Positions 23,311 to 30,888 of a stretch of DNA of 64,000 nucleotides are shown here, piece by piece. The DNA is from Hydrogenobacter sp. T-2 (GTDB lineage Bacteria; Aquificota; Aquificia; Aquificales; Aquificaceae): positions 874,041-938,040 of the forward strand of contig NZ_CP117180.1 of NCBI RefSeq assembly GCF_033971325.1, read 5' to 3'. The notes under the pieces were generated by a model that was not told the origin of the DNA, did not search any database, and saw only the letters and a program-made list of their open reading frames with translations. The position numbers were made by a program, and so were the translations under genes. Within the stretch, counting starts at the first letter, position 1; each line of letters starts with the position of its first letter.

Positions 23311-23358
23311 ATGGGCGATGGAGGACTTGAACCTCCAACCTCCATCTTGTGAGGATGG
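23311..23358. repeat. attL: Left attachment site (partial tRNA-Val copy)
   Basis: These 48 bases repeat 30816-30863 with one mismatch (A for G, in the variable loop). They cover the 3' part of tRNA-Val from the anticodon stem to the acceptor end; the 5' part is absent here. The integrase gene lies immediately to the right. This is the usual scar of integration into a tRNA gene. Confidence 0.9.
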
Positions 23359-23393
23359 GTGAAAGCCTAATTCTGTCAAGGTTTTCGTGGCGG

Positions 23394-23420
23394 GTGTTAA
23401 CTACAGGTTAACTTTTGGGC
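23394..23420. repeat. 27-bp terminal direct repeat, left copy
   Basis: The 27 bases from GTGTTAACTACAGGTTAAC to TTTTGGGC recur exactly at 30655-30681 near the other end of the element. Each copy contains two GTTAAC sites with starts 11 bases apart, about one helical turn. The left copy overlaps the integrase stop codon. They are good candidates for integrase or excisionase arm-type binding sites. Confidence 0.75.
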
Positions 23421-24496
23421 AAAGATTTATCCATAACCTCTGACAGGGTGTCAAGGGCAGACCTAAGATGCTCTGGGCTAAGGTGGGCGTATCTCTTTAC
23501 CATGCTTGTGGACTTATGCCTTGTTAGGTGTTGTATGGTGTAAAGGTCTACTCCTTTCATGGCAAGCCAGCTGGCAAAGGTATGCCTAAGGTCATGAAAC
23601 CTAAGGTCTGGTATGCCTGCTTTCCTGCATGCGGTTTTAAATGCTTTTAGATAGGTCTTGTCCTCTACCTTGTAGGGCTTGCCTTTTGAGTTGGTAAAGA
23701 TGTAGCCTATGCGAGGAGTATTGCCCTTAAGCCTTTTAAGGAGTTCAATGGCTTGCTTTCCCAGTGGAAGCCTTGCTATTTCATTATTCTTGGCATTGGT
23801 TATAGCTATAGTGCCATGCTCTAAGTCCACATCTTCCCATTTTAGGCTAAATATCTCACTGGCTCTAAGACCTGTATAGACTGCAAACTCCACTGCGGGT
23901 CTTAGCCATGACGGGCATGCTTGTAGTAGGCGGGCAAACTCCTCTGGCTTTAAAAACCTAAGCCTACTGTCATCTACCTTGAAAAGTTTAACCTCTGGCA
24001 GGTCTCCAGAGTATAGCTTTAGGGTTTTAGCTTTCTTGAGGATGGCTCTGAGAATGTTAAGCTCTGAGTTTATTGTGTTGGGCTTTACTCCAGCGGATAG
24101 CCTATGCTGTTTATACTGCTCTATGGTGAAGGTGCTTATATTGGATAACTCCATAGTGCCAAAATAGTCAACGAGCTTGTGGACTTTCCTTTCTATCTCA
24201 TAGCTTGTCCTTGCCTTTGCATGTGGGCGGGTAGAGTGATACCACTTTAGATATTCCTGTGCCAGTTCTTTAAAGGTCAGCTCCTTCTCTTCTACTGGCA
24301 GGTAAGTGCCTTGAATTATCTCTTGCTTTATCTTTATGGCTATGTTCCTTGCCATTGTCAGAGGCAGTTCCTCAACCTTGCCAATCCTCTCATAGTATGT
24401 TTTGCCTTTGTAGGTAAACTTTAGCCAGTAAGACCCATGAATTTCATAAAGGTTGTCTCCGTAAGACACTTTGCCTTTCTTTCTTGCCTTTGCCAT
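23408..24496 (-). CDS. int: Tyrosine-type site-specific integrase
   Basis: Phage/plasmid-type integrase, 362 residues from the ATG at 24496. An N-terminal arm/core-binding part (about 1-170) precedes the catalytic domain with Arg211 (TGLRASEIF), the HDLRHTFASW block (His301, Arg304), His327 (LTRHKS) and the nucleophile Tyr336 (VKRYAHLS). All catalytic residues are present. It lies next to the left att site. An in-frame TTG at 24508 overlaps the upstream stop codon (TTGA) and could be a coupled alternative start. Confidence 0.95.
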   Translation of the reverse strand: MAKARKKGKVSYGDNLYEIHGSYWLKFTYKGKTYYERIGKVEELPLTMARNIAIKIKQEIIQGTYLPVEEKELTFKELAQEYLKWYHSTRPHAKARTSYEIERKVHKLVDYFGTMELSNISTFTIEQYKQHRLSAGVKPNTINSELNILRAILKKAKTLKLYSGDLPEVKLFKVDDSRLRFLKPEEFARLLQACPSWLRPAVEFAVYTGLRASEIFSLKWEDVDLEHGTIAITNAKNNEIARLPLGKQAIELLKRLKGNTPRIGYIFTNSKGKPYKVEDKTYLKAFKTACRKAGIPDLRFHDLRHTFASWLAMKGVDLYTIQHLTRHKSTSMVKRYAHLSPEHLRSALDTLSEVMDKSLPKS

Positions 24497-24504
24497 GACA
24501 GACC

Positions 24505-24612
24505 TCAACCCTTAGGTTCATCATGCCAGACAGTCCATGTCATGTAGGCTATCATACCCAAAAGTAGGACTGAGATTAATACGATTATGCTAATGCCTAA
24601 TAGCTTGTCCAT
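24505..24612 (-). CDS. 35-residue single-span membrane protein
   Basis: A very short gene with AAGGAGG 7 bases before the ATG at 24612. The product is a single membrane helix (LLGISIIVLISVLLLGMIAY) with a short charged C-terminus ending DEPKG. Its stop overlaps the alternative integrase start, and it starts 3 bases after the next gene upstream. Function unknown; it could be a holin-like or regulatory small protein. Confidence 0.6.
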   Translation of the reverse strand: MDKLLGISIIVLISVLLLGMIAYMTWTVWHDEPKG

Positions 24613-24614
24613 TG

Positions 24615-24845
24615 CTATAACCTCCTTATGAGCCTTCTGGCTCTTATGTGTAAACTGATAGCAAAAATAAAAAGAAAAACCCACACTAAAGAGCCTGACA
24701 AGATTAGCCCTTTTGCAAGCAGGCTCTCCCACTTAAAAGCAAGCCCTACAAGACCACCAGTAAGCAAAAGTAAAGCATTCCACACATGGCTAAACAGGTG
24801 CTTGTAGTAAGCTATTAGCTCTTTCACTTCCTCACTGCCTTTCAT
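24615..24845 (-). CDS. Small two-span membrane protein
   Basis: A 76-residue protein with two hydrophobic segments (WNALLLLTGGLVGLAF and GLILSGSLVWVFLFIFAISL) and a basic C-terminus (RARRLIRRL). TAGGAG lies upstream of the ATG at 24845. It appears to be first in a small operon with the 35-residue protein and the integrase. Not recognised. Confidence 0.6.
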   Translation of the reverse strand: MKGSEEVKELIAYYKHLFSHVWNALLLLTGGLVGLAFKWESLLAKGLILSGSLVWVFLFIFAISLHIRARRLIRRL

Positions 24846-24868
24846 TCCTAAACTCCTATAGCCACATG

Positions 24869-24916
24869 GCAGTTAACCAACCCTTATGACCTAATGTCTT
24901 GTGGTTAGTTGACTGC
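24869..24916. promoter_or_regulatory. Inverted repeat GTTAACCAACC-N20-GGTTAGTTGAC, left
   Basis: Fourteen-base arms (24869-24882 GCAGTTAACCAACC and 24903-24916 GGTTAGTTGACTGC) pair with two mismatches across exactly 20 bases. The same arm sequence and the same 20-base spacing recur at 30388-30430. It lies upstream of the operon that ends in the integrase gene, so it may be an operator. Confidence 0.55.
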
Positions 24917-24987
24917 AACACATGGCTTAAGTCTTACCCTTCTCATGGGGTGTAGGCTTAAACTCTTCATAAAGATTGCCCTCTCAC

Positions 24988-25185
24988 CTATGCGTTATCT
25001 TGTCCTTTATCTTCCTCTTTCTGACGGGCGGTCTCAAGGATTTCTGTGATTAAGAGGGAGAGGGACTTGCCTTCTTTTTGAGCTTTCTGTGTAAGCCATT
25101 CCTTTAAGTCCTCTGGCACTCTTAACTCTATCCTTGCAATCCTCAACAGGCTACTTAGCCTTTTAGCTCCTTTTACTCTTGGCAT
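24988..25185 (-). CDS. Ribbon-helix-helix (Arc/CopG-type) regulator
   Basis: A small DNA-binding protein. From the ATG at 25185 it is 65 residues: a basic N-terminus (MPRVKGAKRLSSLLR), the ribbon strand ARIELRVPEDL and two helices (KEWLTQKAQKEG, LSLLITEILETARQK). I prefer 25185 to the in-frame ATG at 25209 because TATAAT lies 7 bases upstream of 25185, inside the longer version. It is divergent from the 25307 operon and probably controls both directions. Confidence 0.8.
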   Translation of the reverse strand: MPRVKGAKRLSSLLRIARIELRVPEDLKEWLTQKAQKEGKSLSLLITEILETARQKEEDKGQDNA

Positions 25186-25192
25186 GTTTCTA

Positions 25193-25220
25193 ATTATATC
25201 AACTCTCATGCCTCTGTCAA
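25193..25220 (-). promoter_or_regulatory. Near-perfect promoter of the RHH regulator, leaderless
   Basis: Minus strand: TTGACA (25220-25215), 16-base spacer, TATAAT (25198-25193) preceded by TGA (extended -10). The predicted first base is 25186, one before the ATG at 25185, so the transcript would be leaderless. Confidence 0.75.
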
Positions 25221-25243
25221 CCCGTTTTTTATGACATGACTAC

Positions 25244-25272
25244 TTGACAGGACTAAGAGACAGGATTATAAT
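25244..25272 (+). promoter_or_regulatory. Consensus promoter of the 25307 operon
   Basis: TTGACA at 25244-25249, a 17-base spacer and TATAAT at 25267-25272 match the sigma-70 consensus exactly. TTGACAGGA recurs at 25289-25297, and TTGACAG appears on the other strand at 25220-25214. These three copies around two divergent promoters may be operators for the RHH regulator. Confidence 0.8.
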
Positions 25273-25306
25273 TACCCCTATCAATACCTTGACAGGAGGG
25301 TTAACC

Positions 25307-25681
25307 ATGCAAGACCTTCAACTCTTAAACGGCTGGCTAACGAGCCTAAGCCAAGAGCTTAGGCAAGTCAAGGCAAGGAAGAAGACCCTCAAGAGGCTAA
25401 TGACCCAGCAAGGTTATAGCCTCAAGACCATCAAGGGTCATACCTACCTGTATGTATGGAAAACTGTGGGACATGGTAAGGCTAAGTGGAAGTGCCTTGG
25501 CAACCTTGCAAAGATAGGTGGTATGGCGGTCATTGAGGAACTCCGTAGAGACCGTATGGATGTCTTGCTAAAGGAATGGGAAAGGCTAACCCAGAGAGAA
25601 GAGGAAATCCAGTCCCTTGTTAAACAAGCCCTTGAGGTCTTAGAAAGAAGAAACCAAAACTCTATGGAGGTAGTGGCATGA
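25307..25681 (+). CDS. Element protein with a Y-x-Y-x-W/GKxKWKCLG motif (possibly DUF6788-like)
   Basis: A 124-residue protein; the start is ATG 25307, with GGAGGG then GTTAACC directly before it. An N-terminal helix, a short beta-rich segment (TIKGHTYLYVWKTVGHGKAK, then WKCLGNLAK) and a long C-terminal helix can be seen. The middle part resembles DUF6788-type segments that carry a Y-x-Y-x-R...K-x-K-Y-x-G pattern, but this is only a resemblance. First gene of a three-gene operon with ATGA overlaps. Confidence 0.65.
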   Translation: MQDLQLLNGWLTSLSQELRQVKARKKTLKRLMTQQGYSLKTIKGHTYLYVWKTVGHGKAKWKCLGNLAKIGGMAVIEELRRDRMDVLLKEWERLTQREEEIQSLVKQALEVLERRNQNSMEVVA

Positions 25682-25935
25682 ACCAAAAGCCTAAACAGAA
25701 CAGCTGGCAGGAGGTGGTCAGCCTCCTGCACTACAACGAGAAGACTGAAAGCTACAAAAAGCTAACCGTATCCATAGCAGAGGATGGCGGTGTGATGCTT
25801 TCCTTGTCAGAAGGTAAGAAAGGAGACAAGGACAGCACCGTAAAGGTCAACTTTAGCCTTAACAGGCAAGAACTCATTTATCTTGCCAAAGAACTTGAGC
25901 TTTTGTTTATGAAAGGCAAAGGAGGTAAGACATGA
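25678..25935 (+). CDS. Small orphan protein of the element
   Basis: An 85-residue protein starting in an ATGA overlap with the preceding gene. It has three predicted beta strands (KKLTVSIAEDGGVMLSLS, TVKVNFSL) and a C-terminal helix (RQELIYLAKELELLFMKG). This strand-strand-strand-helix outline resembles small single-strand DNA-binding proteins, but the idea rests on outline only. Confidence 0.6.
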   Translation: MNQKPKQNSWQEVVSLLHYNEKTESYKKLTVSIAEDGGVMLSLSEGKKGDKDSTVKVNFSLNRQELIYLAKELELLFMKGKGGKT

Positions 25936-26339
25936 TAAAGTGGACTTTGGACTTAACAGAGCTTAAGCAAGACATGGTGGAGACCTTAGACTACTGGACT
26001 GGCTTGCTTATCTATCCTTTACCTTTCCCACATGCAACGGTTTACTGGGACTTTGAGAGGGTGCAGGAACATGGCAAGCTCTTCTGGATTGACAGGCTGG
26101 CTTTTAAACATCACTACCTGTATGGAGAGGGTGAATTGCCAGAGCTAAGAGAAGTCATCTACTGGATACCTCTTAGCAAGGAGGAGCTTATGCCTTTCCT
26201 TTCCGAGGACAGGCTTGTGATAGAGGTTTATGAGACTGCAGAGGGTATGGACGGAGACATTGTAGTGGCAGTCAACAGCGTGCCAGTAGCAAGAAGCAAC
26301 AAAAGACTTTTGGTAGAAAAAGCAAAACAAAAGCCATGA
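25932..26339 (+). CDS. Orphan protein of the element
   Basis: A 135-residue protein, ATGA-coupled to the gene before it. It is rich in aromatic residues (LDYWTGLLIYPLPFPHATVY, WDFERV, FWIDRLAFKHHYLYG), mixed alpha/beta, without a signal peptide or membrane segment. Not recognised. A strong hairpin follows at 26353-26389. Confidence 0.6.
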   Translation: MIKWTLDLTELKQDMVETLDYWTGLLIYPLPFPHATVYWDFERVQEHGKLFWIDRLAFKHHYLYGEGELPELREVIYWIPLSKEELMPFLSEDRLVIEVYETAEGMDGDIVVAVNSVPVARSNKRLLVEKAKQKP

Positions 26340-26352
26340 GCGGGTTAGTGAA

Positions 26353-26389
26353 GGCAAGGCATGGGGTGGCAGTTAACCCCATGCTTGCC
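26353..26389 (+). terminator. Strong stem-loop after the first element operon
   Basis: GGCAAG plus CATGGGG pair with CCCCATG plus CTTGCC (13 base pairs, one bulged G) around the 10-base loop 26367-26376, which contains most of a GTTAAC site. No T-run follows, so it may act as an attenuator or RNA-stability element rather than a classical terminator. It lies 14 bases after the orphan gene stop. Confidence 0.5.
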
Positions 26390-26552
26390 TGCCTTGATAA
26401 TCCTAAAAAGCTCAGGAACATTTGCACAAAAAAAACATCCTTTTGACTACCCACTGGAAACACAAGGTTTTTCAAGCAACTGCCTTGTCTTCTCATTTCA
26501 ACACACCTGATTACATTAAGTCCCAGCAAAAACCAATCAAGGAGGTGTTAAC

Positions 26553-26753
26553 ATGAAAGAGATTTACACCATTAAGGAGCTTGCAAGCCTTCTTGGGAAA
26601 AGCCCCCAAGCTATAAGGCAGTTGATTTACAGGGGGCATCTACCAGCCCGTAAGCTGGGTAATACCCTTTATGTTTTCAGAAGAGACCTTGAACAAGCCC
26701 TCAAGCGGGTTGAGCGGCAAAAGAAAAAGGCAAGCAAGGAGGTTGAAGTATGA
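26553..26753 (+). CDS. xis: Excisionase/AlpA-like helix-turn-helix protein
   Basis: A 66-residue MerR-like winged-helix protein: YTIKELASLLGKSPQAIRQL (helix-turn-helix) followed by IYRGHLPARKLGNTLYVFRRDLE. This matches small excisionase-type proteins of mobile elements. GGAGGTGTTAAC runs directly into the ATG, so a GTTAAC motif covers the ribosome-binding site, as at 25300. Its stop overlaps the primase-helicase start (ATGA). Confidence 0.8.
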   Translation: MKEIYTIKELASLLGKSPQAIRQLIYRGHLPARKLGNTLYVFRRDLEQALKRVERQKKKASKEVEV

Positions 26754-28792
26754 AGGAAAGGGAAGACCTTAATCAAAACACACAACCTGAGGAAATTTTA
26801 AACCAAGAGGAACAGTATGTCAACCAAAACGAGCAGTCCACTAACCAAAAGAAGAGGCAATCAGAAGACCTCAAGGGACTAAAAATAGACCAATCAGCCT
26901 TAGCAACCTTTATTGAAACCCTCGCACAGGAAAGAGGTGGCAAGGTTTATATAGAGAAAGGTTATGCGGTCATAAGATGCCCCTTCCATGACGACGAGTA
27001 TCCGAGTTTGTCAGTAAGCATGAAAACGGGACACTTCCACTGTTTTGCTTGTGGAGAGACTGGAAGTATCGTAAAACTCATAGAAGGTTTGGCTCGGGAG
27101 TGGGATAAGACTGAAGGCAAAACTGAGGGCGAGGATTTTGGGCGGTCTAATGCAATTACCTTTCTCAAGAGGGCTGGGATTTTAAAACAAGACAAGCCAA
27201 AAGAGGAAGCGACTTACTACTACTACCTACCACCCTACTACTTTTTCCCAGCCTACAGGAAGAGGAAGCTAAGGTATGCTGATGGCAGGAAGACCTTTGT
27301 TTACGAACACTATGACCATGAAAGGGAAATGTGGGTGGTAGGCAAGCCAAAAGACTGTCCACCCTTACTCTACAATGGCTATGGTGTGGAAAAAGCAAGG
27401 GAAAAAGGCAAGGCAATTTTCTTTGTAGAAGGTGAGAAGGATGTAGAGACCTTAAAAGCTCTGGGGTTATATGCCACTACTTCTGGTGGGGCTAACGACT
27501 GGCATCCAGAGCTGGCAAAAGAGTTTGAGGGAATGGAAGTAGCACTCATTCCAGATAACGATGTAGCTGGCAAGACATGGCTTGTTAAGGTAGGCACTGA
27601 CCTTTTGAATGTGGCTAAGGAGGTCTACTGGGTAGACCTATCTGAGGAAGCCAAAAAGCTGGGTCTTGAGCTTAAGGAAGGCGGTGATATCACTGACCTT
27701 CTTGAACTTGTGGGCGAGGATAGAGAGAAAAGACTTGAGGTCATTAAGGGTTTTGACTACAAGCCTTTTGACCTTGAGGCTATTAAAGAACAACAGGAAG
27801 AGGAAACACTTAAAGGCTTTGAGTGGTTTTTGAAGGCTGAGGACTTAGAGGGTAAAAACCTTGAGTTTCTTTTTGAGGGCTTTTTACCATACGGCTATGT
27901 AGTAGTTTTGAGTGGAGAGGCTGGAGTGGGTAAAACTTGGTTGTCTTACGGACTTGTAAAACAAGCTATAAAACAGGGAGTAAAGGTGGTTTATCTTGAT
28001 GCGGACAACAGCTTGCCATACATAAAACAGATGCTTGAGGATTTTGACCTTTACAAAGAACTGGGAAAAAACCTCTTCATTCTCTCAAGACAAAAGGCGG
28101 AGGTTAGCATAAGTAAGGATAACAGCAAGTGGAAGGCGGTCAAAAGGCTTTTAAACAACGTAGACAGATGCCTTGTGATAGTGGATACCTTAGGAAGTTT
28201 TTCAAGAGGCTATGACCCTAACTCAGATAGAGACATGAGAGAGGTTATGTCAGAACTAAAGGAGACAAGGGACATGGGACATGCGGTCTTGGTCTTACAC
28301 CACACACAAAAATACGCATCTTTTGATGATAGCCAGCCAGTGGAGACCAAATACAGAGGGTCAGCAGTGATAAAGAGTGATGCGGACGGGCTTTATTACA
28401 TCAATAGAGAGGACAACTCATACTATCTCCATGCGGGGAAACTCCGATTTATGGGGTCTTCACTGGTTGTAATAACCTTGACAGTAGAGGGAGCTAAGAT
28501 TGAACCCCAGACCACTGAAAGCAAGCTGGAAAAAGACGCACGGAGGCTACTGGACTTGATGGAAGAAGGCAAGGAGTATACACGGCAGGACATTATAGAA
28601 TTGGCTAAGACTTGGTATGACTGGGGCAGGGATAAGACCCTAAAGCTACTGAAACTGATACAAGACAAAGGGCTACTGGAAGTCCAAAAAAGCCAAAAGA
28701 GTAAAGGTAAGGGCTATGTTTACATAAAACCCTCGGGGCAACAGTCCTCGGGACAAGGGGATGCTACAGATGACCTGCTTACTGACTTCTAA
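26750..28792 (+). CDS. Primase-helicase (CHC2 zinc finger, Toprim, RecA-like ATPase)
   Basis: Replication protein of 680 residues. After a Gln/Asn-rich start (about 8-34) come a DnaG-type zinc finger (CPFHDDEYPS at about 77, FHCFACGETG at about 98), a Toprim domain (VEGEKD at 226-231, IPDNDVAG at 267-274) and a RecA/RepA-like ATPase with Walker A GEAGVGKTW (about 389-397) and Walker B LVIVDT (475-480), then LVLHHTQK. A winged-helix-like tail follows. It would prime and unwind DNA at the element's origin, and is the main sign that the element can replicate. Confidence 0.92.
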   Translation: MKEREDLNQNTQPEEILNQEEQYVNQNEQSTNQKKRQSEDLKGLKIDQSALATFIETLAQERGGKVYIEKGYAVIRCPFHDDEYPSLSVSMKTGHFHCFACGETGSIVKLIEGLAREWDKTEGKTEGEDFGRSNAITFLKRAGILKQDKPKEEATYYYYLPPYYFFPAYRKRKLRYADGRKTFVYEHYDHEREMWVVGKPKDCPPLLYNGYGVEKAREKGKAIFFVEGEKDVETLKALGLYATTSGGANDWHPELAKEFEGMEVALIPDNDVAGKTWLVKVGTDLLNVAKEVYWVDLSEEAKKLGLELKEGGDITDLLELVGEDREKRLEVIKGFDYKPFDLEAIKEQQEEETLKGFEWFLKAEDLEGKNLEFLFEGFLPYGYVVVLSGEAGVGKTWLSYGLVKQAIKQGVKVVYLDADNSLPYIKQMLEDFDLYKELGKNLFILSRQKAEVSISKDNSKWKAVKRLLNNVDRCLVIVDTLGSFSRGYDPNSDRDMREVMSELKETRDMGHAVLVLHHTQKYASFDDSQPVETKYRGSAVIKSDADGLYYINREDNSYYLHAGKLRFMGSSLVVITLTVEGAKIEPQTTESKLEKDARRLLDLMEEGKEYTRQDIIELAKTWYDWGRDKTLKLLKLIQDKGLLEVQKSQKSKGKGYVYIKPSGQQSSGQGDATDDLLTDF

Positions 28793-28803
28793 ACCCACGA
28801 AAG

Positions 28804-28823
28804 CCTTGAGCGTCAAGGGTTTG
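28804..28823 (+). repeat. Iteron-like repeat, copy 1
   Basis: CCTTGAGCGTCAAGGGTTTG, a 20-base unit with the dyad CCTTG-N5-CAAGG. Close copies occur at 30479, 30633, 30724, 30754 and 30794. This copy lies 8 bases before the first palindrome. Confidence 0.6.
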
Positions 28824-28831
28824 CCTGTTTT

Positions 28832-28873
28832 TCTGATTTTACGACCCTATATATATATAGCCGTAAAATCAGA
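28832..28873. repeat. Palindrome A (12-bp arms around an AT palindrome)
   Basis: TCTGATTTTACG (28832-28843) pairs with CGTAAAATCAGA (28862-28873) around an alternating-AT core. It is a partly eroded copy of the longer palindrome at 30500-30553. The shared sequence, including the upstream iteron and the downstream TCTCAAAA and ACCAG blocks, extends over roughly 110-120 bases in the same orientation. Confidence 0.75.
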
Positions 28874-28924
28874 CGAACGGAATGAGACCCAATCTCAAAA
28901 AAACCAGCCACTGGAGGGTAAACC

Positions 28925-29425
28925 ATGAGGTTAGGGGTAGAAAGATTTTTGACAGAAGATCCCGCTCCTAAAGCAATAAACCCAGTCCCGCCTGAGACCG
29001 ATAACAAGCCTGAGTTAAAGCCCATAGAAGGTGTAAAGCTCCCTTTTGACCCACAGAGGGATAAGGCAAGGAAGGTCATGGCTGGCTTGTGTGATTGGGT
29101 TAGGCAATATGGCATAGGTGTTTATGAAGTCCACTACAAAGACAAGCTGGCAATCTACTGGGTAGTGGACGAGCAAGAGGTAAAGGTTTACGAGGTAAAG
29201 TATAAGCAAAAAGACCTTAACGAGCTTGAAAAAGAGGTAAGACTTATGCTGGGCTTGGTTATGAAGGCTGACAGGCTTATGAAGGAAGGCTATGACAGGG
29301 ACTTACTCGTTAACTTAGTGATGAAGGCAAAAGAGACCAATGGTAAAGTCATCTTTGTAGACAGGAATGACAGGCTTGAGGTTTATGAGGGAAAGAGGAT
29401 TGTCAAGACCTTGCATAGGGGCTAA
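28925..29425 (+). CDS. Orphan element protein, paralogue 1 (MRL-EkFL-ED family)
   Basis: A 166-residue protein paralogous to the next gene. Shared features are the N-terminus MRLGVERFLTED, a linker, a helical block (ARKVMAGLCDWVRQYGIGVYE), a beta block ending in VKVYEVKY, and the C-terminal VIFVDRNDRLEVYEGKRIVK. Shine-Dalgarno GGAGGG precedes it. No family recognised. It lies between palindromes A and B. Confidence 0.75.
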   Translation: MRLGVERFLTEDPAPKAINPVPPETDNKPELKPIEGVKLPFDPQRDKARKVMAGLCDWVRQYGIGVYEVHYKDKLAIYWVVDEQEVKVYEVKYKQKDLNELEKEVRLMLGLVMKADRLMKEGYDRDLLVNLVMKAKETNGKVIFVDRNDRLEVYEGKRIVKTLHRG

Positions 29426-29469
29426 TATAATACCCTGTAGCATGAGGCAAACCATAAGGAGGTAGCACC

Positions 29470-29982
29470 ATGAGGTTGAGCATTGAAAAGTTTCTCTCGG
29501 AAGATGTGGTAAGAAACCCCGAGACCTTAAGCCACGAAGAGCTATACAGGAGACACAACCTTAACCGCTATTCATACCTACCACCTTTTCTACAACCTGA
29601 CCCTCATGAAGAAGCAAGAGACATTGTAGCACGGTTATGCAAGCAGGCAAGGGAAAGGGGTGTGAGGGTTTACGAGGAGATGGATGAGGACAAGATAGAG
29701 GTCTACTGGAAAAGAGGTAGGTCAAGGATAAAGGTGTATGAAGCACGCTACAGGCTAAAGGATAACGACATGCTTGAGCTGGAAGTAAGGCATATCCTTA
29801 GTTTGGTCATACAGGCTGACAGGCTTTTGAACGAGGGGGTAGACAAGAGGCTTGTGTTTAACCTCTTGGAAAAGGCAAGGAAAACAAAAGGAAGGGTTAG
29901 TTTTGTGGTTAGGGTAAACGGGATTGAGGTTTACGATGGGGTAGTCCTCAAGAGGACGATTTATCGTAAGCTACAGGCTTGA
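29470..29982 (+). CDS. Orphan element protein, paralogue 2 (MRL-EkFL-ED family)
   Basis: A 170-residue paralogue of 28925-29425: MRLSIEKFLSED at the start, ARDIVARLCKQARERGVRVY, IKVYEARYRLKD, VRHILSLVIQADRLLNEGVD and FVVRVNGIEVYDG near the end. AAGGAGG precedes the ATG. The alignment runs the full length except for the linker at about 13-50, so this is a tandem duplication that has since diverged. Function unknown. Confidence 0.75.
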   Translation: MRLSIEKFLSEDVVRNPETLSHEELYRRHNLNRYSYLPPFLQPDPHEEARDIVARLCKQARERGVRVYEEMDEDKIEVYWKRGRSRIKVYEARYRLKDNDMLELEVRHILSLVIQADRLLNEGVDKRLVFNLLEKARKTKGRVSFVVRVNGIEVYDGVVLKRTIYRKLQA

Positions 29983-30040
29983 GGGTAGGGTTTTCTGATG
30001 GGGGGATAAAAAGGCTTGCCCCCACCTACCACCCTACCCT
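29982..30040 (+). terminator. Nested stem-loop after the paralogue pair
   Basis: AGGGTAGGGT (29982-29991) and ACCCTACCCT (30031-30040) are a perfect 10-base inverted repeat, with an inner GGGGG/CCCCC stem. It begins at the stop codon of the last element gene, so it probably ends or stabilises that transcript. Only AAAA follows on this strand. Confidence 0.5.
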
Positions 30041-30068
30041 AAAAGTCCACTGGAATACCCTCATACCC

Positions 30069-30120
30069 GTAAAACGCCTCAAAAAGGCTTGCACTTGCCT
30101 GCCAGCGTGCAGGCTTTTAC
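30069..30120. repeat. Compound inverted repeat
   Basis: An outer stem GTAAAA-GCCT / AGGC-TTTTAC competes with an inner stem GCCTGC/GCAGGC (30097-30102 with 30109-30114). Alternative folds are possible. CCCGTAAAA recurs at about 30164. No role can be assigned. Confidence 0.4.
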
Positions 30121-30387
30121 GCTCTTGGCTTAAAAATTCCATGCAGATTAAACAAGTAAAGCACCCGTAAAAAGGCATACTTTCCCACACTAACTTAAAA
30201 AAATCTCAACCACTCCAGTGCTTGTTTTGACAGCCATTGACAAAAGGATTTTTTAAGCCTACAGCCAAGCCCATGAGGAATTTTTTAAGCATGCCAGCGA
30301 GAAAAATTTATGTTTTATTGAACCACACAAGATAACAGGTCTAAAGGCAACGTGTATGGGGGTCATCTTGCCTTCCTAAAAAAATGT

Positions 30388-30430
30388 CAGTTAACTAACC
30401 AATGCATGGATAGGTCTATGGGTTAGTTAG
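30388..30430. promoter_or_regulatory. Inverted repeat GTTAACTAACC-N20-GGTTAGTTAG, right
   Basis: The arm CAGTTAACTAACC (30388-30400) faces GGTTAGTTAG (30421-30430) across exactly 20 bases, the same architecture as at 24869-24916. Nine of the ten inner bases pair. The loop sequences of the two copies differ, so the arms and spacing are what is conserved. This suggests a protein-binding site with two half-sites three helical turns apart. Confidence 0.55.
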
Positions 30431-30478
30431 TGCCTCAAAACCTTGTGTGGTAAGGTCTTAAGCCTGCGTGGGTCAGAG

Positions 30479-30498
30479 CCTTGAGAGACAAGGATTTG
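30479..30498 (+). repeat. Iteron-like repeat, copy 2
   Basis: CCTTGAGAGACAAGGATTTG with a perfect CCTTG-N5-CAAGG dyad, one base before palindrome B. Confidence 0.65.
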
Positions 30499-30499
30499 C

Positions 30500-30553
30500 C
30501 TGTTTTTCTGATTTTACGACCCTATATATATAGCCGTAAAATCAGAAAAACAG
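30500..30553. repeat. Palindrome B (19-bp perfect arms)
   Basis: CTGTTTTTCTGATTTTACG (30500-30518) and CGTAAAATCAGAAAAACAG (30535-30553) are perfect inverted repeats. The 16-base centre contains the self-complementary CTATATATATAG (30522-30533). It is the intact version of palindrome A, 1.67 kb away in the same orientation. Such structures occur at replication origins, resolution sites and telomere-like sites. Confidence 0.8.
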
Positions 30554-30632
30554 ACTGGGTCTCAAAAACCAGTAGGCAGGTAAGCCATACAGTTAACACC
30601 CTACAGACCAGTTAACCCAGACCACCTAAAAC

Positions 30633-30813
30633 CCTTGACAGACAATGCTTGGAAGTGTTAACTACAGGTTAACTTTTGGGCGTAATTTCCTGTGTTTTCC
30701 TGTAATTTTCTGTAGTGTAAGACCTTTGACACACAAGGCTTTGAAAACTATCTCATTGAAAGACAAGGCTTTTAAGAAGGGCTTTTCTCAAGGCTTTGAG
30801 TGATAAGGATTTG
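30633..30813 (+). repeat. Iteron-like repeat cluster, copies 3-6
   Basis: Units at 30633 (CCTTGACAGACAATGCTTGG), 30724 (CTTTGACACACAAGGCTTTG), 30754 (CATTGAAAGACAAGGCTTTT) and 30794 (CTTTGAGTGATAAGGATTTG), with starts 91, 30 and 40 bases apart. The consensus is CYTTGANAGACAAGGNTTTG. The last unit ends 2 bases from the right att site. A looser match is at 30441-30460. Confidence 0.65.
30655..30681. repeat. 27-bp terminal direct repeat, right copy
   Basis: Exact copy of 23394-23420, with the paired GTTAAC sites at 30657 and 30668. It lies about 135 bases from the right att site; the left copy is about 35 bases from the left att site. This asymmetry is typical of integrase arm sites. Confidence 0.75.
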
Positions 30814-30815
30814 GA

Positions 30816-30863
30816 ATGGGCGATGGAGGACTTGAACCTCCGACCTCCATCTTGTGAGGATGG
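30816..30863. repeat. attR: Right attachment site (inside intact tRNA-Val)
   Basis: 48 bases matching 23311-23358 with one mismatch. They form the 3' part of the intact tRNA-Val gene, so the element carries the sequence that restores the tRNA on integration. Confidence 0.9.
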
Positions 30864-30888
30864 CGCTCTGCCTCTGAGCTAATCGCCC
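30817..30888 (-). tRNA. tRNA-Val (anticodon CAC)
   Basis: Minus-strand cloverleaf: acceptor GGGCGAT/ATCGCCC, D stem GCTC/GAGC, anticodon stem CCATC/GATGG with loop CTCACAA (anticodon CAC at 30856-30854), T arm GGAGG-TTCAAGT-CCTCC, discriminator A, no encoded CCA. It is the integration site of the element, which extends from its 3' end. Confidence 0.95.

Follow-up and report, generated by a model that had tools for sequence, protein, structure and literature searches.

A palindrome that follows the primase-helicase gene as candidate replication origin of a small integrative element in Hydrogenobacter sp. T-2, present there in two copies

What is the function of a long palindrome that is found twice, in the same orientation, before and after a pair of paralogous genes? 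This question is raised by a locus of Hydrogenobacter sp. T-2 within the window, the stretch of 64,000 nucleotides (64 kb) that was analysed here. An earlier note on this DNA had offered three readings of the duplicated module: an origin and its decayed twin, a resolution site, or the boundaries of a cassette.

Both copies of the module are located on an element of about 7.5 kb (23311-30863) that is integrated at a tRNA-Val gene. The right attachment site, attR (30816-30863), lies inside this gene (30817-30888, minus strand); attL (23311-23358) is a copy of the 3′ part of the tRNA gene and identical to attR in 47 of 48 bases. On the minus strand, the element encodes a tyrosine integrase (23408-24508; Phage_integrase, 6.5e-41) and a ribbon-helix-helix regulator (24988-25209; RHH_5, 3.1e-6). 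The plus strand carries the genes for an AlpA/excisionase-like helix-turn-helix protein (26553-26753; HTH_17, PF12728, 1e-11) and for Rep (26750-28792), a fused primase-helicase with a CHC2 zinc finger and a RecA-like AAA_25 domain (Pfam; PHROG DNA primase/helicase, 2.4e-23), as well as the paralogues par1 (28925-29425) and par2 (29470-29982), whose products are 44% identical and have no Pfam or PHROG match. Further small proteins are also encoded. According to Pfam and PHROG, the element combines an integrase, an AlpA-like regulator and a primase-helicase without structural phage genes, and no resolvase-type gene other than the integrase was found among its main reading frames. A perfect direct repeat of 27 bp, GTGTTAACTACAGGTTAACTTTTGGGC, is present just within both ends of the element (23394-23420 and 30656-30682) and also in a related element of the same genus (G036, see below); it probably represents arm sites of the integrase or excisionase. 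In addition, a dyad, GTTAACTAACC ... GGTTAGTTA, is found once in the element of the window (about 30388-30433) and twice in that of G036 (L015, about 8800-8740 and 8375-8325).

Confidence in the structure model of Rep is low (mean pLDDT 60), and its fold matches to Twinkle and T7 gp4 add no more than agreement with the family searches. In this model, the order of helices and strands at the C terminus (residues 592-659) looks like that of a winged helix. The helicase domain of Rep is distantly related to RepA of RSF1010 (1g8y, E 0.0086). For the par protein, the predicted fold is good over residues 40-166 and gave no significant structural match; relatives of par were found, among 136 genomes, only in the window genome and in G036.

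Each module consists, in this order, of a quasi-palindromic iteron, a palindrome with 19-bp arms around a TA run, and a TCTCAAAA/ACCAG block; the inverted arms stand on both sides of the TA run and the iterons on one side only. Module A (28804-28907) occupies the gap between rep and par1. Its iteron CCTTGAGCGTCAAGG, of the CTTGANNNTCAAG type (28804-28818), is followed by palindrome A (28825-28880), which begins 32 bp downstream of the rep stop codon and comprises a left arm (28825-28843), a centre (28844-28861) with the TA run at 28848-28859, and an eroded right arm (28862-28880); block TCTCAAAAAAACCAG follows at 28893-28907, rearranged immediately upstream. Module B (30479-30572) ends about 260 bp from the tRNA gene. 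Here, iteron CCTTGAGAGACAAGG (30479-30493) precedes palindrome B (30500-30553), in which perfect 19-bp arms (30500-30518 and 30535-30553) enclose the 16-nt centre ACCCTATATATATAGC (30519-30534; TA run 30523-30532), and then comes block TCTCAAAAACCAG (30560-30572). All these parts read on the plus strand. The modules are in direct orientation with an offset of 1675 bp. Across the 56 nt spanned by iteron, left arm and centre, their identity is 95%, and a third copy was not found in the 1.69-Mb genome.

With this, the arrangement described in the earlier note, a module present twice in the same orientation about 1.67 kb apart and flanking the paralogues, is confirmed, and so are the perfect 19-base arms and the alternating-AT centre of copy B, which came out of an inverted-repeat scan. 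The erosion reported for the right arm of copy A is also real: it is confined to the outer part of that arm, where 3 of 19 pairs are non-Watson-Crick, two of them G.T. The layout of iteron, palindrome and block holds overall, but not downstream of palindrome A, where the sequence (28883-28907) reads TGAGACCCAATCTCA instead of the GGGTCTCA found in B and in G036. The former looks like a template-switch product of the latter.

In the scan of the 64-kb window, palindrome B was the sole perfect 19-bp inverted repeat with a loop of at most 21, and apart from it at least 12 perfect pairs were found in palindrome A alone. The DNA-folding z-scores were -11.2 for B and -6.3 for A, and none of 200 shuffles reached either value. 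These comparisons, together with the arm scores given below, rule out a chance palindrome. Neither strand shows an intrinsic terminator, which would have a G+C-rich stem and then a U-run: the arms are rich in A/T, and what comes after them is A-rich or lacks a U-run. A search against Rfam gave tRNA alone above the cut-off and no known RNA family for the palindromes.

The related element of G036, from the same genus, is integrated in tRNA-Met and has a Rep with 64% identity. It contains one full palindrome, located as copy A just after rep, then one par gene and then cargo unlike that of the window; close upstream of the palindrome is a partial second unit made of an iteron and the start of a left arm. 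Between these two elements, the palindrome after rep is thus the common feature, and the presence of two full palindromes is peculiar to the element of the window. The integrases of the window (23408-24508) and of G036 (L015:13786-14913) hardly differ in their N-terminal part, which binds the arm sites, and have diverged in the remainder, a pattern that matches the different tRNA targets (Val and Met) and the shared att-proximal region. A weak terminase-small-subunit-like match in G036 (L015:7765-8178) hints at a phage satellite. In a second genome, G028, an orphan palindrome stands beside a tRNA-Val att remnant, inverted relative to it; its arm letters are different, yet it has 19-nt arms with one mismatch. 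In the element of G045 (L051, L052), the integrase, the RHH and HTH proteins and the att region are related to those of the window, but the replication gene is another one, and there is no TA palindrome within the L051/L052 sequence covered, which speaks for a tie between palindrome and rep; apparently, its replication module has been swapped. A simple pattern check of short DNA matches in G091 and G092 found nothing.

These relatives bear on the idea that the palindromes are a site for recombination or resolution, or bound an exchangeable gene cassette. Direct repeats do flank par1-par2, the cargo past the first palindrome does differ between the window and G036, and copy B does adjoin the conserved att region. 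However, the modules resemble each other far more than the paralogues do (95% in DNA over iteron, left arm and centre versus 44% in protein), the only full palindrome of G036, an element with different cargo, is not repeated at the junction of cargo and att region, no resolvase-type gene accompanies the integrase among the main reading frames, and in the relatives the palindrome is single and located within rep or directly behind it; the copies within the rep genes of distant elements bound nothing. Taken together, neither the resolution site nor the cassette boundaries of the earlier note are supported, and we regard any such function as very improbable. That note had named relatives with one palindrome only, and with no link to gene content, as the finding that would refute its case. 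With the single copies found, the link to the gene pair is lost, but the palindrome itself remains as a conserved part of the replicon.

When the arms of the window and G036 were aligned by sequence alone, four pairs were found to have changed on both sides with pairing kept; three had changed without keeping Watson-Crick pairing, two of these being G.T. With G028 added, 9 of 19 pairs had changed on both sides and 96% of the cells pair, compared to 0-1 both-side changed pairs in a control with slid partners. Since the G028 copy was found via its palindrome, its pairing is partly selected; this does not apply to the changes in G036. It is the symmetry that is conserved across the elements while the arm letters change.

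To look beyond these close relatives, a covariance model built from four copies was searched over 136 genomes of Aquificota. It led to G021:C103 (E 1.7e-5) and to G007:C186, a match that taken alone is weak (E 0.005); both are located in the 3′ part of rep homologues found earlier by a separate protein search. On reading the sequence, the reps of G007:C23 and G004:C81 have the same plan. In these four distant Rep homologues (20-29% identity), a TA run in an inverted repeat lies at the 3′ end of rep, inside the reading frame, and the same iterons stand upstream in three of the four. TA runs, counted at a length of at least 8, are rare in the contigs compared. The arms score 7-19 around the runs at the ends of rep and around that of the orphan, compared to 3-3.5 for the three runs elsewhere in the same contigs and a median of 3.5 (99th percentile 7) at random centres; the 80 viral contigs contain 33 TA runs, all with scores below 8. 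In the three Aquifex loci, the arms are short, with 7-10 pairs as judged by the score. When one mismatch is allowed, the iteron CTTGANNNTCAAG precedes the centre at a fixed distance in 7 of 8 copies, compared to 3.5% of random stretches; this distance is 44-49 nt in the window, G036 and G028, while the three Aquifex loci have 37-38 and 88-89 nt. The arm motif is repeated upstream in G004, G007 and G028, and the arms may therefore be repeats to which the initiator binds. The iteron motif is also present in the att-proximal region, where the integrase or some other protein may use it.

Only a few related elements are available, all of them from one phylum. One further Rep homologue, G023:C33, has an AT-rich 3′ region with no clear equivalent of the palindrome. 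Two weak matches of the covariance model (G082, G032) turned out on reading to be AT-rich stretches without the module. Scans of viral contigs with rep yielded no match or, for the most part, matches limited to the zinc finger, and L169, the broadest viral match to rep, is without a TA-centred palindrome. The pattern CGACC-(TA)n-GCC was absent from the viral contigs and, in the phylum, present only in the window genome and G036.

The location inside rep is also difficult to reconcile with a role in the regulation of the par genes, in which the palindrome would act in the par1 leader as an RNA structure or protein site and copy B would be the leftover of a lost par gene. In the window and in G036, the palindrome directly precedes a par gene, B is followed by a remnant of a par start, and four of the six non-Watson-Crick departures in copy A and G036 are G.T, which would be G.U in RNA of the coding strand. 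On the other hand, the four distant elements have the palindrome within the rep reading frame, relatives of par are limited to two of the 136 genomes, and the G028 copy stands alone. A regulatory hairpin or operator is, therefore, unlikely.

We consider it probable, on the basis of sequence comparison, that each module is a copy of the replication origin of the element. This argument rests on the presence of the same structure at the rep end of related elements, where the sequence has changed but the changes come in matched pairs. Of the three suggestions of the earlier note, an origin and its decayed twin fits best, since the palindrome follows rep across distant elements. In the mechanism that we envisage, the element would excise and circularise, and Rep, as fused primase and RecA-like (ring) helicase, would bind the iteron and both arms flanking the TA run. 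The TA run would be melted by Rep or stabilised as a hairpin or cruciform. Rep would then load outward on both sides as helicase and prime synthesis there. It could read either two inverted duplex sites or a folded hairpin; the matched changes in the arms agree with either mode, because two sites read by one Rep would be expected to change alike.

Phage P4 has a replicon that consists of an origin and a second cis-acting site (crr). By analogy, A and B could be required together, which is conceivable for the window element only; indeed, iteron, inner arms and TA centre are retained in both copies. But the family does not show two separate cis sites: G036 has one full site with a partial unit close upstream. 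Moreover, copy A is decaying, and we take such a two-site replicon to be quite unlikely.

If each module is an origin, the two copies have had different fates. Copy A is found at the ancestral place after rep and is eroded on its right side, whereas copy B, near attR, is intact. Copy B keeps block GGGTCTCAAAAACC, which is also present in G036, and its similarity extends further into GGTAAGCCAT (30579-30588, plus strand), a remnant of the par ribosome-site and start region; identical letters stand directly before the par gene of G036, but no gene follows in the window. This indicates that B formerly preceded a par gene that is now lost, or that it arrived by recombination with a close relative. 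Given 95% identity of the modules and 44% of the par proteins, the modules were not duplicated jointly with the gene pair; the relative divergence rules out such a joint duplication of module and paralogue. Because A has lost outer pairs of its right arm and its block is rearranged, B appears to be the better candidate for the working origin and A the eroded copy.

Comparable origins are known from other systems. In phage-inducible chromosomal islands (PICI/SaPI; pri-rep-ori), the origin is immediately 3′ of rep with repeats around an AT-rich centre, and the gene order of integrase, regulator, AlpA-like protein, primase-helicase and origin is also alike (PMC6092414). In contrast, the element described here has one iteron and one long inverted arm pair instead of two iteron sets, a much longer palindrome and a second origin copy, and no helper phage or packaging is known. 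In plasmid pRN1, a stem-loop 3′ of rep is required for replication; it is found shortly after rep (54 bp, compared to 32 bp for copy A), its structure is kept as the sequence changes, the initiator is a primase-helicase as well, and recognition of the folded hairpin was proposed (PMC4234260). However, the pRN1 initiator is a prim/pol with an SF3 helicase rather than a CHC2 zinc finger with a RecA-like helicase, and its stem of 21 nt and loop of 58 nt differ from the 19-bp stem, the TA-rich loop of 14-18 nt and the upstream iteron seen here. In this reading, the element would function in the manner of pRN1, yet its Rep is of another kind and places it outside that group.

The origin of phage lambda, with iterons and an AT-rich stretch, lies inside the reading frame of gene O, and in this it resembles G021, G007 and G004; the O protein, however, loads the host helicase and is not itself a helicase, and lambda is not known to have a long palindrome around a TA run. 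RSF1010 has ssi priming sites, two hairpins on opposite strands. It shares with the present element hairpins near iterons and, in RepA, a distant relative of the Rep helicase domain, but its primase is a separate protein and the ssi hairpins do not form one symmetric palindrome. More speculatively, and rather doubtfully, hairpin origins recognised by their folded structure may have evolved independently in heat-loving bacteria, where the initiator is a fusion of DnaG-type primase and RecA-like helicase, and in archaeal plasmids with their prim/pol-SF3 initiators; the window element would have two such origins, an intact one replacing a decaying one.

The palindrome provides a testable candidate origin for these small integrative elements of Aquificota, a family on which a search of open-access papers found nothing. 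Genomes from hot springs can be searched for replicons by the plan seen here, an iteron followed by inverted arms around a TA centre where rep ends. A more general question also becomes testable, namely whether fused primase-helicases read two inverted duplex sites or, as has been proposed for pRN1, a hairpin in its folded form. Finally, the element would be a natural case of origin duplication with one copy eroding.
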